From an uncultured Eubacteriales bacterium (GTDB lineage: Bacteria; Bacillota; Clostridia; Oscillospirales; Oscillospiraceae), in NCBI GenBank assembly GCA_934572535.1, contig CAKTLJ010000017.1, positions 1-38,363 of the forward strand: a DNA stretch of 38,363 nucleotides. Reading direction: 5' to 3'. Made by a program: the position numbers and the translations under genes. Shown in pieces: positions 1 through 38,363 of this stretch. The number at the start of each line of letters is the position of its first letter. Positions within the stretch are counted from its first letter, which is position 1. The notes under the pieces were generated by a model, which made no database searches, was not told the origin of the DNA, and worked only from the letters and a program-made list of their open reading frames with translations.

Positions 1-656
1 CGGGTGATGTTCCCCTGCGGCTGCACCGTCCCGTCGGGATACCCGACGATGTAGGCGTAGTGGTCCTTCTTGTTCAGGGTGGGCTTGGAGGAACCACCGC
101 TGCTGGACTGGTGCTTGGTGTAGGTGTTGGTGAAGAGGATTGGATCCTTGGGAGCGGGCTGTGTGATATTATTGTCAACAGGGGGCGTTACACTAGTGAT
201 CGTGCCATCCTGCTTATAACTACTTGTAACGTCTGCTGTCAACTTACCGTCATCAGTTTTAGTCACGGTCACAGTCACGAGGTAAGTCGCGGGATCGTAG
301 GTCCAGTATGTAGTATCGTTACCGGGAGTTTCTTTGACTTCATAGACATAGGTGTCCTTTTCCTTGCCATCGGTCAAATTGGTATAGCGAGGATTGAATT
401 TGAAGTCACCCTTACCGCTGGTTACGGTGTACGTCTCGCCGTCCGCAACAGCCGTATCATTCTTTTTGACCAGCTTCATGGTAAAGGTAAAGTTTTTATC
501 GGGAGGCGTCACATTGCCGCCCTGCACCACGTTCTTCGTGCCATTGATGGCAACCGTTGCGGCAACCGTGATGGTTGCGCTAGTCTCTTTGTTATCAACT
601 TTCACGGTGTTCTTGTATTCGGTTCCAGGGACTGCACTATAGTCACAGCGACCTCG
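1..656 (-). pseudogene. Distal part of VWA surface protein (Spy0128-like and SLH domains), out of frame with its upstream part
   Basis: A reading frame is open on the minus strand from a stop at 657-659 to the window edge, one frame away from the preceding VWA gene. Its translation continues that protein sensibly: a beta-rich region with FTFTMKL and ending in ILFTNTYTK is typical of Spy0128/FctA-type pilin isopeptide domains. A Ser/Gly linker follows, then DHYAYIVGYPDGTVQPQGNITR-like sequence (DHYAYIVGYPDG visible), the start of an S-layer homology domain. SLH domains bind secondary cell-wall polymer, so the intact product would be non-covalently wall-anchored. There is no plausible separate start or ribosome site, so this is the 3' half of the upstream gene, disconnected by a one-base shift somewhere in 605-656. 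Adding one base near 641-642 would give a smooth join (V-T-Y-S-A-V-P-G). It could be a sequencing error, a true mutation or a phase-variable site. The protein continues beyond position 1. Confidence 0.8.
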
Positions 657-2848
657 CTATCCTGGGTAAATTCCTTTGCAACAGGATCATAGGTCAGGGC
701 CAGAGTGGGGGCAGTGCCCATCATCGTCACGTTTTCACTATTTGTGACGTTATCCCCTGTACCGTGCTTCCAAACAATGCCGACCTTGTTGTCGGTATCA
801 TAGTTGGGAGTCTCTCCCTGGTTGATGGTAGTATCCTGGAACGTGATCACGGGCTTATAGACATGAACGGTGCCAGTTGCATTTTTGGGTACAGCTTCGG
901 CAGGTGTGCCAACAGCAACCGGATCATGCTTGGGGGTAACAGTCGCCTGAACGGTGTAGTTACCGTCTTCAACATTGCTGATAGAGGCAGAAGTATCCTG
1001 AAGCGCAACATTACCAACGTTCACGAAAGCAGTCTTCCAGGAATTCTGATCTGCAAAAAATGCTCCCGTCTCGTCTACGAGATCTCTAGCGCTCGGCGCT
1101 GCATTCCCGCAGTAGATATTGACGGTCTTACCCTCAAGGTCAGGAACATTCAGCGGAACATTGACCGTAGGCACAGGGAAGGTCCCAATCTTCTGGTCTT
1201 CCTTATTGTAGATACCAGAGGTATCAAGATTGGTCGGAACATTATTGCCGCCCCAGAATCCAGCCTTGGGCGTGACCTTCACTTCAACGACCAGCTTCTT
1301 GCCGTAGAAGTTGTTGCCGTTAACTGTTCTTGGCGTACCAGAGACAAAGTTTGCATCGTAGTCAAACCCGGTCACGGTCACTTTATCCCCATCAACAGTT
1401 GGTTCAATAGTGGAGTTATCGGGATCCCCCCACTTATAGTTCCCGTCCTCATCAACTCCTGTGCAGGGAACCTCCTTTACGGTGACCGAGCCTTCACCTT
1501 CAACCACATCAAAATACGGTGTAACGGTATCCACCAACGTTGCCTCGGCTCCCAGCTGGATTGCGGGACTTGCAATATTCTGAGAAATCTTTTCAAAGAC
1601 GCCAGCCAGGCTCATACCCTCACCCGGAACCATGTAATAGCCCTTGGCAGGGTCGCCGCCATTGCCCGGAGTGTTCATGGCTGTAGCGTTAGGATAGTTG
1701 CTGGATAAAAGGTGCATGAAGCGGTTGATATTGGTGTTACCACCTGGAAGAGTCGTTCCTACGTTCGCACCTTTATCAATGCAGACAGAATAGACGGCAA
1801 CATCCTTAGACTTCAAGTCCTTGGCTTTCAAAATTGCAGCGTTTGCAACGTTAATTTCAAAGTCGCTGTTGTAAGTAGGTTCTCCATCGGTAAAGACAAC
1901 AACGACCTGATTTCTTTCGCTGCTAGCCTCTCCCAGAGCCGCAGTCGCTCTGCTCAATCCCTTGTCAACAGCTGTAGCGCCAGCTGCACTCAATCCTTGA
2001 ACCGTATCCTTAAGAGACTGTGCTGTCTCAGTGGTTACGCTTGTCAACCCTGTTACGATCTGAGAATAATTGTACTTGTGTCCGTATTCCGTATAGGTAT
2101 CATTTCCTGTTTCAAACTTTTCCGTTCCCGCGAACTTAACAATAGAAATTCTATGCTGTTTAGCCTCCGCAACACCCTCATTCTGTTGCGCAGTCAGATC
2201 AATGAAGCTGTTGACCGCAGCTTTCAGAGACTCTAACTTGTTCACGGTTTTCGATGTTATCTTTTTTGTATAAAACTGAACAACCTCAACATCTGTATAC
2301 TCTCTTAGAGGCGCTCCTGTCACGTTCGTGTTAAGTTGCGGATAATAATAGTGATACTGTCGATTCAAGAAAGAACCAGTGGCGTAATAAAAGTATTCAT
2401 ACCCATTTTTATCCATACCACCGTATCTCAATTGCTGATAGGTTTCACCATTTTTTATGTAGTAAGTATCGTTGTTGTTAAATCCATAGCCTGTGTAGTT
2501 CTGAAAGAACCACTTATACGTATACTCCTTGCCCAAAACCGCTGTATAGGTGTCTGTATATGTTGTATAGGTGGCATCCATACTGCCAGACATATCCAAC
2601 ACGAGGACAATGTCGGTGGGTCTGCTGCTGGTTGAGCTTGTCACCGTACCGGTCGTGTAGGCCTCCATGGTCAGTGTGTAAGAGCCGTCATTGTTCGCCG
2701 TGGCAATCTTACTGACATGCAGGCCTTCCGGGTTAGTACTAGCATCCGGAGTAGGCCCTGTTCCGCCGCCTGTCGCCAACGCAGTCATCGGCAACAGCGA
2801 CAAGCACATGGCCAGGGTCATGGCCAAGGCCAGTATTCGTTTCTTCAT
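602..2848 (-). CDS. Secreted VWA-domain surface protein, N-terminal part before a frameshift
   Basis: This 748-residue product begins with a Sec signal peptide (residues 1 to about 25, basic KKR, then a hydrophobic run ending TALA). The VWA domain runs from about 78 to 420. Its MIDAS metal-site motif is complete: DMSGSM with D85, the GATAVDKG threonine near 292, and FTDGEP with D321. A Tyr/Asn-rich insertion (about 92-195) sits between the first MIDAS motif and the rest of the fold. Immunoglobulin/adhesin-like beta domains follow. VWA proteins of this layout are adhesins or pilus-tip-like proteins, which is inference here. The ribosome site AGGAGG lies 8 nt before the ATG. The frame stops at 602-604, while the next frame carries the expected C-terminal domains, so the gene is frameshifted in this assembly. 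It is AT-richer than the housekeeping genes. Its only good upstream promoter lies in a putative invertible segment and points away from it. Confidence 0.88.
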   Translation of the reverse strand: MKKRILALAMTLAMCLSLLPMTALATGGGTGPTPDASTNPEGLHVSKIATANNDGSYTLTMEAYTTGTVTSSTSSRPTDIVLVLDMSGSMDATYTTYTDTYTAVLGKEYTYKWFFQNYTGYGFNNNDTYYIKNGETYQQLRYGGMDKNGYEYFYYATGSFLNRQYHYYYPQLNTNVTGAPLREYTDVEVVQFYTKKITSKTVNKLESLKAAVNSFIDLTAQQNEGVAEAKQHRISIVKFAGTEKFETGNDTYTEYGHKYNYSQIVTGLTSVTTETAQSLKDTVQGLSAAGATAVDKGLSRATAALGEASSERNQVVVVFTDGEPTYNSDFEINVANAAILKAKDLKSKDVAVYSVCIDKGANVGTTLPGGNTNINRFMHLLSSNYPNATAMNTPGNGGDPAKGYYMVPGEGMSLAGVFEKISQNIASPAIQLGAEATLVDTVTPYFDVVEGEGSVTVKEVPCTGVDEDGNYKWGDPDNSTIEPTVDGDKVTVTGFDYDANFVSGTPRTVNGNNFYGKKLVVEVKVTPKAGFWGGNNVPTNLDTSGIYNKEDQKIGTFPVPTVNVPLNVPDLEGKTVNIYCGNAAPSARDLVDETGAFFADQNSWKTAFVNVGNVALQDTSASISNVEDGNYTVQATVTPKHDPVAVGTPAEAVPKNATGTVHVYKPVITFQDTTINQGETPNYDTDNKVGIVWKHGTGDNVTNSENVTMMGTAPTLALTYDPVAKEFTQDSEVAVTIVQSLEPNTRTP

Positions 2849-2935: not shown

Positions 2936-2963
2936 GCTACCAAAATGTGTACCTTTTGATAGC
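2936..2963. repeat. Putative recombination site A (left, VWA-proximal)
   Basis: This 28-bp imperfect palindrome has 14-bp half-sites GCTACCAAAATGTG and, on the other strand, GCTATCAAAAGGTA. The central GTGTAC lies at 2947-2952 in plus-strand orientation. It matches site B (3073-3100) at 23 of 28 positions when the two are aligned as inverted repeats, including the whole GTGTAC core. Direct alignment gives only 22 and breaks the core. The 28-bp dyad with a central dinucleotide (GT) resembles crossover sites of small serine recombinases, and such a gene lies 142 bp away. The role is inferred. Confidence 0.62.
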
Positions 2964-3027
2964 GGATGAAAGCTGCGCCAAACGCCGAATTTTGCGCTGA
3001 GATCTCGTAAATATTTTAACAAAGCTA

Positions 3028-3056
3028 TTGCGATGTAAAGGATTTTAGGGTAAAAT
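3028..3056 (+). promoter_or_regulatory. Sigma-A promoter inside the left putative invertible segment, pointing away from the VWA gene
   Basis: The -35 box TTGCGA (3028-3033) and -10 box TAAAAT (3051-3056) are separated by 17 nt. In the present orientation it would transcribe rightwards, antisense to the end of the recombinase gene, where no plus-strand gene exists. If sites A and B recombined, the promoter would turn round and start transcription near 2973 on the minus strand, about 125 nt upstream of the VWA start codon. I see no comparably good minus-strand promoter here: the best is TTTACA/TAAAAT with only 15 nt between the boxes. Confidence 0.6.
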
Positions 3057-3057
3057 A

Positions 3058-3104
3058 GGAAAAACAGAAGCAGCTATCAGAGAGTACACCTTTTGATAGC
3101 TGCT

Positions 3105-3105
<1 letters not shown>
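3058..3105 (-). terminator. Rho-independent terminator of the recombinase gene, overlapping site B
   Basis: A perfect 12-bp stem (3068-3079 with 3094-3105) is followed in the minus-strand RNA by CTGTTTTTCC. It begins at the recombinase stop codon. The stem contains recombination site B. If the segment inverted, the stem would lose its T-tract, which could allow read-through from the recombinase into the VWA leader; that is inference. Confidence 0.7.
3073..3100. repeat. Putative recombination site B (recombinase-proximal)
   Basis: This 28-bp dyad has half-sites GCTATCAGAGAGTA (plus strand) and GCTATCAAAAGGTG (minus strand), with the core GTGTAC on the minus strand (3084-3089). All four half-sites of A and B fit GCTAYCARARNGTR. 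Core-to-core distance to site A is 137 bp, enclosing a 109-bp segment with one promoter. The dyad doubles as the recombinase terminator stem, so part of its symmetry may be due to that. The half-site similarity to site A is not explained by a terminator. Confidence 0.6.
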
Positions 3106-3821
<716 letters not shown>

Positions 3822-35080: not shown

Positions 35081-35548
35081 TTGGAAGATTCTCTTCTCAT
35101 GCAATGCGCCGCCATCATGGGCATTTCCATGACCCCCGTGCTGGAGCTTCGCGGCGCCATCCCCTTTGGCCTGGCCATGGACCTGCCCGTGTGGCTGGTC
35201 TACCTCGTCGCGGTGATCGGCAACATGGTCCCGGTCCCCGCGATCATCCTCTTCGTCCGCAGCGCCTTCCGGTTCCTGCGGAAATTCCCCCGGTTGGAGG
35301 CAAAGATCTCCAGCCTGGAAAAGCGCGCCCATTTGAAGGGGCGGCTCGTCCGGAAATACCGCGTCCTGGGCCTCATCATTCTGGTGGCCATCCCCCTTCC
35401 CGGCACGGGGGCCTGGACCGGCGCGCTGGTCGCCGCCTTGCTGGAGATCCGCATCCAGTCGGCCCTGCCCTCCATCCTTCTGGGCGTTATGATCGCCGGC
35501 GGGATCATGACCGCCGCGGCCTGCGGCGTCAGCTCCCTTTGGTTTTGA
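35081..35548 (+). CDS. Small multidrug export family membrane protein (COG2426)
   Basis: The 155-residue protein has about four hydrophobic segments and resembles the Sm_multidrug_ex/COG2426 family. The ELRGAIPFGLAM stretch near the start and PLPGTGAWTGALVAALL near the middle are recognisable. Despite the family name, transport activity is poorly established. The start is TTG with AAAGGAG 7 nt upstream. It follows the LysR gene by 45 bp and may be its target or operon partner. A strong bidirectional terminator follows. Confidence 0.8.
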   Translation: MEDSLLMQCAAIMGISMTPVLELRGAIPFGLAMDLPVWLVYLVAVIGNMVPVPAIILFVRSAFRFLRKFPRLEAKISSLEKRAHLKGRLVRKYRVLGLIILVAIPLPGTGAWTGALVAALLEIRIQSALPSILLGVMIAGGIMTAAACGVSSLWF

Positions 35549-35554
35549 AGACAC

Positions 35555-35607
35555 AAAAAACTCGCAGCAGTTCAGGATAGCAACATCCTGCTGCTGCGAG
35601 TTTTTTT
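35555..35607. terminator. Bidirectional terminator before the right promoter switch
   Basis: The perfect 12-bp stem AACTCGCAGCAG / CTGCTGCGAGTT has an inner CAGGAT/ATCCTG hairpin, TTTTTTT on the right and AAAAAA on the left. It ends the exporter transcript and, read the other way, would stop transcription from the switch promoter in its present orientation. Confidence 0.9.
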
Positions 35608-35626
35608 ATGTGTACTTTTTGCGACC
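35599..35626. repeat. Putative recombination site C (right switch)
   Basis: The core GTGTAC (35610-35615) sits in ATGTGTAC, with an inner half-site GGTCGCAAAAAGTA (minus strand) that matches site A's inner half GCTATCAAAAGGTA at 10 of 14 positions. The outer half is blurred by the terminator T-tract. It pairs as an inverted repeat with site D (18 of 28 positions). The site is weaker than A or B; the geometry argument is stronger than the sequence. Confidence 0.42.
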
Positions 35627-35642
35627 TCGTGTCAATAGTTTC

Positions 35643-35671
35643 ATTATACAGCACAATTACAAATGTTACAA
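35643..35671 (-). promoter_or_regulatory. Sigma-A promoter inside the right putative invertible segment, pointing away from the VWA gene
   Basis: On the minus strand, TTGTAA (35666-35671) and a perfect TATAAT (35643-35648) are separated by 17 nt. As it stands it transcribes leftwards into the bidirectional terminator at 35555-35607. If sites C and D recombined, it would start near 35725 and drive the VWA gene at 35775. I see no good plus-strand promoter in the segment. Confidence 0.6.
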
Positions 35672-35734
35672 GCTGTTTCTGTCATTTCTTGTCAGTTTGA
35701 CGGAAATACTTGAAGCTTACAGAGAAAAGAACGT

Positions 35735-35762
35735 GTTCTTGAAATGTACACATTTCAAAAAA
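35735..35762. repeat. Putative recombination site D (right switch)
   Basis: TTGAAATGT ac ACATTTCAA (35739-35758) is a perfect inverted repeat, with core GTGTAC on the minus strand (plus GTACAC 35746-35751). Core-to-core distance to site C is 136 bp, against 137 bp for A/B. The outer half abuts the AGGAGG ribosome site of the VWA gene. It could instead be a plain operator or leader hairpin. Confidence 0.45.
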
Positions 35763-35774
35763 GGAGGATTTTTC

Positions 35775-38363
35775 ATGCGAAAACGAATCTTAAGTATCTT
35801 GCTCTCCCTTGTGATGGTGATGAGCTTACTGCCCGCTGCCGCCTTCGCGACAGGAGAGACAGAGGGCGAAGGCGAGACAGGAACGCCTGCGGCAGAGCCT
35901 AAGACGATTTATGTTGATGCAGCAAATGGCGATGACACGCAAACTGATGTTGGTACGACAGCAGAGAAGGCGTATCAGAGCTTGGAAAAAGCTGTTACCG
36001 CAGCAGCAAGCGGCGATACCATCCAGCTGGGCACGGGTAACTATACGCTATACAAGGTCGACAGCACAGGGCATACCAAAGGCAAAGACTTGACCTTTGT
36101 GGGTCAGGGAGCCGATAAAACAGGCTGGAATATCGGTGCAGAAGTTCCCGACCCGGCGAACTTCGGTACAGAGTACAACGGTGATTACAGCTTTGACGGC
36201 GCAGGAACGATTAAGTTCAAGGACATGACGCTCCGTTCCGGAAGTGCAGATTATCTGGGCTTTATCCGTGCGGATCAAACGGTTGTAGAAGATTGCACGA
36301 TCAACGGCAAGACGTTCTACTGGGGCTATACTTCTGCAACGTTTACGAATACCACGTTTAACTGCCCGAGTGGCGATTATGCACTCTGGACGTACAGTTC
36401 GCCCACAATGACCTTTGACAACTGTACCTTTAATTCTTCCGGTAAGGTTATCAATGTCTATACCGATTATGGTGCGGGTCAGCATGATATTACGGTTAAC
36501 TTTAAGGACTGCACGGTTACTAATACGGGATGGAGTTTTCTTTCAAAGCAGGTACTGAATGTCAATGACAGCAATATGGGCAATTTCAAGTATGTCCTCA
36601 ATATCTCCGGAAATAATACGGTTTCTAATGTGCCGTATGATAGCGTCACTTGTTCCCGTTTGTATGGTTTTGGTGGAAATGCTAAGACTAACAACACAGG
36701 TAGATTGGATGTAAACATTGACGGTACACCTGTTTGGGCAAATGGTAAGATGCTTACGCACGATCACTCTGCCGGTCAGCAGGACAATGCATTTACCACC
36801 GTTGAAGGCGATTGGATTACAAAACCAGACGGTACTCAAATCCGTACCGTAACCAAAACCTGCAAATACTGCGGCTATCAGGAAGAAACAAAGGAATTTG
36901 GATTGGACATTTCCCGATCCAAGACCGCAACGGCGCTGAATACGCGCGATTGGACTTCTGACGTGACCCTGTCCCTGCCCAGCGCAGAGGAAAAGCTGGC
37001 ATCGGATGTGGTATTTGTGCTGGACAAGTCCACGAGTACTGCATTGGAAGAACAGGCGCTGGATATGCTCAATAAACTGAAAGAGCAGGCAGAGAGCACG
37101 GAAGCAAAGGTCAAGGTCGGCGTTGTAATCTTCAATAAACAGGCAAATGTAACTCCGCTTACAGATCTTGCTGCCGGTTACGACTCCATTAAAAGCGCAA
37201 TCGAGCAAGAGATTAGCAGCGGAACAAACACCCACGCCGGACTTCTTGCAGGCAAGCAGATGCTGGACGAGGATACCGAAGTTGCCGCAAATCGGAAATA
37301 TCTGATTTTTGTAAGTGATGGTATCTCGTATATGTATGATCCGGACGGTAAGATTGTTCCGTACTATTGGAGAAGTGACAACCCGTACTATTCTTATGAC
37401 CCCTATAGCTGGTCGTTCAAGTATCACAACGATAATCCGCCTGAGGATTGGTCGGCATGGATTGCACAGATCGGCGGTATTATTGAAAAGGAAAACGTTA
37501 CCCCTATTCTGTACGCAGATCATAGGGCGGCTGTTAAAAATGGCACCTTAAATATTAGTGATTACACGGATGTAACGGATTTTGATGTCGATCAGTATAC
37601 TACCTGCGTGGATCGCGCATTGTATTATACATATCAGACTTACGCTGCCGCAAAGAATGCGGGATATAACTGCTACGCAGTTACTAATGGAAGCTCGACC
37701 GCATATCTTTGGGGTCCGGACTTTATGCGCTACTTGGCCGATGGACAAACGGTAGACTTCGACAAAATCCAGAATGACATCCTCTACGCCGTCAGTGCCG
37801 GTTCTACGGTAGAGGACAAGATGGGCGATGCGTTCGATTTTGTTCCCGGTTCGCTGAAGCTGACTGTCGGCGGCAAGGAGCTGAAATCCAAGGCAGACGG
37901 CAACATGACCTATTTCGGAGATGATGCCGAAAATCTGAGTGAAAATAACTACCGTTTCAAGGTGCTGTACGCTCTGGATACGGATGCTTTCGTCTGGACG
38001 ATCAACGAAAATGTTTCCAACTTTGCACCGGTTCAGCTGACCTATACCGTCAAGCTGACCACCCCCGAAACCACGCCGGGTACATACGGTGTAGAGGATC
38101 TGAAGGGCAAAAACGTGCTTTCTGACGAAGAGGCTGCAAAGGCGCTGTTCACCAATGAAAGTGCTGTTCTGAACGCTAAGAACAGCGCCGGTGCACCGCT
38201 CAAACCCTTGAACTTCCCGAAGCCCTCGGTTTCCTACAGGGTAACCGGCGGTGGAGGCGGCGGCGGTGGTTCGACCAGCTACTACCTTGCCCTCAAGAAG
38301 GTAGACGCGCAGGACGGCCACGCGCTCAGCGGCGCGCAGTTCGGCCTCTATCAGGACGGCAAG
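35775..38363 (+). CDS. Secreted VWA surface protein with beta-helix and SpaA-like domains, partial
   Basis: An 863-residue stretch is visible and runs off the window. The Sec signal peptide (MRKRILSILLSLVMVMS...AFA; cleavage near residue 25) resembles that of the left VWA protein. Residues about 40-330 look like a right-handed beta-helix (TIYVDAANGDD opening, repeated DCTIN, NTTFNC, NCTFNSS turns). A CKYCGY motif follows near 363, then a VWA domain with MIDAS residues DKSTS (D417), SGTNTHAGL and FVSDG. Beta-sandwich domains come next, then a glycine run, then LKKVDAQDGHALSGAQFGLY (from about 836), the start of a SpaA/prealbumin-like pilin domain. It probably acts as a large adhesin or pilus component. 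The ribosome site AAGGAGG is 7 nt from the ATG. Its promoter seems inverted away from it. The gene is AT-richer than the housekeeping genes, and the anchor lies beyond the window. Confidence 0.87.
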   Translation, partial: MRKRILSILLSLVMVMSLLPAAAFATGETEGEGETGTPAAEPKTIYVDAANGDDTQTDVGTTAEKAYQSLEKAVTAAASGDTIQLGTGNYTLYKVDSTGHTKGKDLTFVGQGADKTGWNIGAEVPDPANFGTEYNGDYSFDGAGTIKFKDMTLRSGSADYLGFIRADQTVVEDCTINGKTFYWGYTSATFTNTTFNCPSGDYALWTYSSPTMTFDNCTFNSSGKVINVYTDYGAGQHDITVNFKDCTVTNTGWSFLSKQVLNVNDSNMGNFKYVLNISGNNTVSNVPYDSVTCSRLYGFGGNAKTNNTGRLDVNIDGTPVWANGKMLTHDHSAGQQDNAFTTVEGDWITKPDGTQIRTVTKTCKYCGYQEETKEFGLDISRSKTATALNTRDWTSDVTLSLPSAEEKLASDVVFVLDKSTSTALEEQALDMLNKLKEQAESTEAKVKVGVVIFNKQANVTPLTDLAAGYDSIKSAIEQEISSGTNTHAGLLAGKQMLDEDTEVAANRKYLIFVSDGISYMYDPDGKIVPYYWRSDNPYYSYDPYSWSFKYHNDNPPEDWSAWIAQIGGIIEKENVTPILYADHRAAVKNGTLNISDYTDVTDFDVDQYTTCVDRALYYTYQTYAAAKNAGYNCYAVTNGSSTAYLWGPDFMRYLADGQTVDFDKIQNDILYAVSAGSTVEDKMGDAFDFVPGSLKLTVGGKELKSKADGNMTYFGDDAENLSENNYRFKVLYALDTDAFVWTINENVSNFAPVQLTYTVKLTTPETTPGTYGVEDLKGKNVLSDEEAAKALFTNESAVLNAKNSAGAPLKPLNFPKPSVSYRVTGGGGGGGGSTSYYLALKKVDAQDGHALSGAQFGLYQDGK

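Follow-up and report, generated by a model that had tools for sequence, protein, structure and literature searches.

A segment at positions 2936 to 3100 of the window (the whole stretch of DNA that was analysed, 38,363 nucleotides) is most probably an invertible promoter that is flipped by the product of the adjacent serine recombinase gene at 3105-3728, the switch being OFF as assembled and ON after inversion. The recombinase would bind both inverted 28-bp sites, which would be brought together via looping of the roughly 137 bp that separate them; cutting of the shared central dinucleotide and rejoining would then turn the promoter around, so that transcription of the gene for a VWA surface protein would start from it, the leader being about 125 nt long. 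These protein–DNA mechanics and the control of expression are proposed from the sequence, as is inversion itself, for which the family as a whole gives good support and which is very likely in the window. The features concerned are the following:

602 to 2848, minus strand: predicted target, a VWA surface protein with a signal-like N-terminus
3 to 605, minus strand: FctA-domain ORF in another frame, directly downstream of the VWA ORF and leaving the window edge
2936 to 2963, no strand: putative recombination site on the VWA side, a 28-bp dyad with centre GT in GTGTAC
2964 to 3072, no strand: putative invertible segment, the 109 bp separating the dyads
3028 to 3056, plus strand: promoter TTGCGA-17-TAAAAT, with 59 bp between the start of its -35 and the centre of the core in the downstream site; OFF, directed away from the VWA gene
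3073 to 3100, no strand: putative recombination site on the recombinase side, a 28-bp dyad whose flanks prolong it into a terminator-like hairpin at 3067-3106
3105 to 3728, minus strand: small serine recombinase of 207 aa, 3' end toward the segment (Pfam Resolvase, 9.5e-30; Sin 2r0q, 6.4e-29)

The two facing 28-bp dyads with GTGTAC cores that an initial annotation had reported were located at these positions, with a start-to-start distance of 137 bp, cores consisting of GTGTAC and its reverse complement, and an interval of the same length as the 109 bp given there. The four half-sites that it had regarded as fitting all match the pattern GCTAYCARARNGTR without a mismatch (4/4). Half-sites alone say little, since the pattern with up to two mismatches gives 6 matches against 5.5 expected by chance; the complete 28-mer dyad pattern has 0.00 expected occurrences in shuffles. 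Each main site is an imperfect dyad with 2 mismatches. With regard to the promoter, its position on the plus strand, the VWA gene being on the minus strand, agrees with the direction away from that gene and with the OFF state that had been described, and after a flip about 125 nt would separate the promoter's start from the ATG at 2848, which reproduces the predicted leader. It had also been called the lone good promoter of the segment. The promoter is real, but a second match, TTTACA-18-AATATT on the minus strand (9/12), has an equal simple score inside the same segment, so that the claim leans on the position being conserved in relatives.

The adjacent gene is likewise real, although 4 bp and not 5 bp separate it from the outer site. 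Its product scores 104 bits for the Resolvase N-terminal domain, above the curated cut-off of 23.3, and its nearest solved structure is that of Sin; the alignment spans the catalytic N-terminal motifs and the ORF is intact. On the NCBIfam Mpi model (PRK13413) it reaches 41.5 bits, below the cut-off of 272, and as a serine recombinase it falls outside the tyrosine-recombinase invertons of Clostridia. In a recombinase tree that took in 78 of 81 sequences, the window enzyme groups with two relatives (L001 and L002, support 97/82), and names from Lachnospiraceae, Oscillospiraceae and others are mixed.

The target had been annotated as a VWA/SLH protein. The VWA domain is present in the target ORF, but a domain scan found no SLH domain either there or in the FctA ORF, the gene continuing past the window edge. 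These two ORFs (602-2848 and 3-605) lie in different frames with a 4-nt overlap; the FctA ORF is probably the rest of the same surface-protein gene after a frameshift, and either a real frameshift or an assembly error seems to lie near 600-650. A candidate second pair of sites, missed in the initial annotation, accompanies another predicted target:

35599 to 35626, no strand: candidate left site of the second pair, weak, with one good half-site
35643 to 35671, minus strand: second-pair promoter TTGTAA-17-TATAAT, offset 59, OFF (the second VWA gene lies in the opposite direction)
35735 to 35762, no strand: candidate right site of the second pair, weak
35775 to 38363, plus strand: second predicted target, a surface protein of VWA / GBS104-like type, incomplete because the window ends within it

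The second-pair cores, GTGTAC at 35610 and GTACAC at 35746, are 136 bp apart, and one half-site scores well while three score poorly. None of 60 first-order simulated windows matched this pair in sites, spacing and promoter, in a test designed after the pair had been noticed. When the DNA of 35541-35990 was searched for in 250 family genomes, 10 gave matches, all of them short (22-55 bases). The second pair may have decayed, or it may serve another recombinase. A family switch that is locked or decaying in the window strain could account for the different frames of the VWA and FctA ORFs, for the three poor half-sites out of four in the second pair and for the two mismatches in each main site. 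This is nevertheless an unlikely state for the window switch, in view of the intact recombinase ORF, which aligns with Sin over the catalytic motifs, and of the main pair, which retains matching centres, the spacing of 137 bp and the promoter offset of 59 bp.

The reading as an invertible promoter draws further support from related loci. A scan of a genome collection gave 456 relatives of the recombinase; the analysis used the best 80 loci (66-77% identity). Inverted TCAAAARGTNNACYTTTTGA-like sites occur as a pair in 56 of these 80 recombinase-fetched loci, almost always just 3' of the gene, and of the 72 loci whose contig extends for 300 bp or more on that side, 56 have the pair and 16 lack it; five sets of first-order simulated loci contained no inverted site pairs. 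The recombinase has its 3' end toward the segment wherever its ORF is listed with a pair. The pair list was cleared of five chance pairs, each sharing a true site, and of six entries that duplicated a genome place already present, leaving 107; one chance pair (L202) was removed as well, and the final total, including loci from whole genomes, stands at 121 pairs.

The central dinucleotides are identical in inverted alignment in all 121 pairs, the window pair included. Such identity is a requirement of serine recombinases that work with a 2-bp overlap. The same match holds for 57/57 pairs when only the recombinase-fetched loci and the window are considered, for which the search had left the centre free. 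Positions other than the centre do vary within pairs, and across loci the centres fall into several classes (GT/AC in 105 pairs, AT in 11, CT/AG in 4 and TT/AA in 1). Furthermore, site spacings cluster at 114-115, 125-128, 134-139, 146-148, 156-158, 166-169 and 176-180 bp, the lengths between being unused up to 175 bp, with outlying values of 190 (two pairs), 204, 253 and 257 bp. This corresponds to a periodicity of about 10.5 bp (R 0.77) that was reached by 0 of 20,000 smoothed resamples, with the loci being related and their kinship ignored; it was likewise unmatched in resamples when the 134-139 class was left out and in the recombinase-fetched set alone. The place of the promoter is also fixed, with a distance to the downstream site of 57-60 bp in 90 of 92 confident calls (allowed range 55-64 bp) and at least 9 of 12 promoter bases at that place in 56 of 121 pairs, against 1.8% of shuffled segments.

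Orientation among relatives had been suggested as a check of inversion, and two sets of related loci carry the segment in opposite orientations. Between L062 and L079, which have methyltransferase-like targets, segment identity is 0.83 when inverted and 0.55 in the same orientation, with flanks at 0.81 and 0.77; for L021 and L025 the corresponding values are 0.77 and 0.57, with flanks at 0.89 and 0.60. These are the two convincing cases among the similar segments compared. The remaining similar segments with a known target side share one orientation, except for L073/L087, an opposite-orientation case that was set aside since the target side of L087 is wrong. Together with the site pair and recombinase in 56/80 relatives, the 121/121 matched centres and the fixed promoter place, these opposite orientations support the inverton that the initial annotation had proposed.

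Most callable switches are OFF (68/77). Among the 67 pairs adjoining a recombinase, 51 are OFF, 7 are ON and 9 were uncalled, and among the 40 pairs scored as orphans, 17 are OFF and 2 ON (one of them, L087, called from the wrong target side), with 21 uncalled or ambiguous. The orphan class includes L040, despite its locus having been fetched via its own recombinase, and L115, which adjoins a truncated recombinase, and for some orphans a neighbour is possibly hidden past the contig ends. Of the type-A pairs in Evtepia gabavorous (G001), four are OFF and one is ON, if the signal-peptide protein is assumed to be the target of the latter. The bias among recombinase-adjacent pairs could suggest that the OFF orientation mainly exerts antisense control over the recombinase, the promoter facing its 3' end; judged from these sequences such a main role is improbable and was rejected, since pairs scored as orphans are likewise biased to OFF (17 against 2 of 40). 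Contigs end within 250 bp of the recombinase on its 3' side in 8 of 80 loci and on its 5' side in 2 of 80, with 1.2 expected per side; the excess at the 3' side fits mixed orientations, and assembly breaks at repeats are also possible.

It is highly improbable that the dyads flank a fixed promoter as terminators or operators and are not recombination sites: the recombinase-side dyad does score as a terminator-like hairpin, and the dyads would form RNA hairpins too, but this reading was rejected on account of centres that match in 121/121 pairs yet vary between loci, inverted segments in related loci and an adjacent recombinase gene in 56/80 loci. Resolvase-type deletion was rejected because the sites are inverted.

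Beyond the flipping of an adjacent promoter, the family recombinase probably acts on several promoters per genome in trans. A protein search with E up to 1e-20 detected a single recombinase in each of five genomes that carry three to six pairs, namely G261 with six (all of 137 bp, all GTATAC), G265 with five, G285 with three, G307 with five and G309 with four. In G307 and G309 the recombinase (L004 and L024, respectively) has no pair in its own locus, and the recombinase is absent from the stretches surrounding their pairs. One detected enzyme against three to six pairs, with two genomes having no pair beside the gene, makes it likely that the enzyme is trans-acting. Both GTGTAC and GTATAC pairs occur in G307 and in G309, each pair being internally matched. 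Central dinucleotides may serve as address labels. The segments compared in G261 with one another, and likewise those in G265, show 82-98% identity and lie upstream of different, partly related genes. Seven other genomes (G300, G293, G009, G310, G060, G299 and G311) have four to seven recombinase-family matches each, so that their pairs are not assignable to one enzyme, which counts against any simple rule. The window enzyme may serve further loci too, as its relatives appear to do.

A broader reading, which we favour slightly, is that Clostridia harbour a widespread master-invertase system, in which promoter cassettes scattered in front of surface, restriction-modification, kinase and metabolic genes are all flipped in trans by a single small serine recombinase. 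The dinucleotide classes would keep loci from cross-recombining, the helix would quantise segment length since the tight loop made by sites at a distance of about 137 bp requires that they face one another, and the window would hold two such switches. If this is true, a common switch of Clostridia could be read from sequence by its TCAAAARGTNNACYTTTTGA pairs, its 10.5-bp ladder and a promoter offset of 57-60 bp. It would then predict phase variation of surface proteins and of restriction-modification genes in many species known from metagenomes only. It would also offer a natural test of DNA twist as a limit on short-range serine-recombinase synapsis, and of dinucleotides as address labels.

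With regard to known systems, Sin is the closest solved structure to the window enzyme (2r0q, 6.4e-29), but Sin is a resolvase, labelled a plasmid resolvase in a further PDB entry, whereas the inverted sites of the window imply inversion. The RecV switches of C. difficile and Clostridia inverton group 139 resemble the window in their invertible DNA and phase-variable control in Clostridia, yet RecV is a tyrosine recombinase and the window system uses a serine recombinase. Hin and Gin share with it a small serine recombinase and inverted sites; the window sites are only about 137 bp apart, whereas the invertible segment of Hin is larger. Hin inverts through site-specific recombination at hix (according to an excerpt of PMC11868660) and requires a Fis-bound enhancer (according to an excerpt of PMC3798978). 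Group 139 is linked to tyrosine-type recombinases in the available part of Jin et al. 2025 (PMC11892184). Mpi is described, in an excerpt of PMC4747536, as a serine recombinase that flips 13 promoter regions in Bacteroides fragilis. It is similar in the type of enzyme, in the several promoters per genome that the window family probably flips and in having surface functions among its targets. Conversely, the window enzyme falls far below the Mpi cut-off (41.5 bits against 272) and comes from another phylum, the sites, promoter type and target range differ, and the window-family cassette often travels with its own recombinase. Among the literature matches listed by a full-text search, no title or abstract concerned the window serine-recombinase family, an earlier listing of single cases being possible, and a master-invertase system of small serine recombinases in Clostridia was not found described among them.

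The targets of the family were characterised for 63 of 83 ORFs; long ones were truncated at 900 aa, so that domains near the C-terminus, SLH for instance, would be missed. These 63 include 8 proteins with BspA-type leucine-rich repeats, 5 AMP-binding enzymes, 3 SPFH proteins, 2 SLH proteins, 2 PP2C, 2 FkbH, 2 MmeI-type methyltransferases, 1 Eco57I methyltransferase and 1 protein kinase; methyltransferase models gave strong matches for L079 and L136 and weak ones for L018 and L062. The cassette is therefore not restricted to surface proteins. Among the targets at L039 (8814-11261), L026, L034, L040 and L148 are a radical SAM protein and AMP-binding enzymes with a common N-terminal motif, TGYPSIDKPW.

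The distribution of the family site was followed with up to one mismatch allowed. It occurs in 46 of 49 genomes that had been chosen for a pair or lone site at the locus (reversed control 0/49), in 9 of 12 genomes with a pairless recombinase locus (control 0/12) and, within the family to which G001 belongs, in 21 of 250 genomes (control 5/250). In the last sample a DNA match to the recombinase region was found in 84 of 250 genomes, against 21 with the family site, so many relatives must have other sites or none, and the same may be true of more distant members. With less stringent criteria, diverged sites were sought 3' of the gene in 54 loci: 14 showed a match and 40 did not, room being lacking in some of the latter. 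Three of the 14 coincide with type-A places already known, L188 is a repeat of L103, and the match in L070 is poor. One diverged pair (L183), with a core inverted in letters, CCTATAGG-like sites and a spacing of 126 bp, adjoins a more distant recombinase. Evtepia gabavorous has a second site type, TGAAAA-like, with a spacing of 114-115 bp (L085:2957-3090 and L086:2908-3042); a second recombinase (62%) goes with it, and one of these pairs is adjacent and the other an orphan.

Phage records gave a match in 229, one of them at 60-80% identity, and 15 IMG/VR contigs carry the family site. Twelve IMG/VR stretches (L155-L160, L162, L163 and L165-L168) have a single TCAAAARGTGTACYTTTTGA palindrome, with no partner or recombinase within the stretch, and several of them have common surroundings. 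A site pair and a piece of a recombinase are found in L161, and two contigs classed as viral in IMG/VR carry the cassette of recombinase and site pair (L154:7300-8093 and L164:7529-8294).
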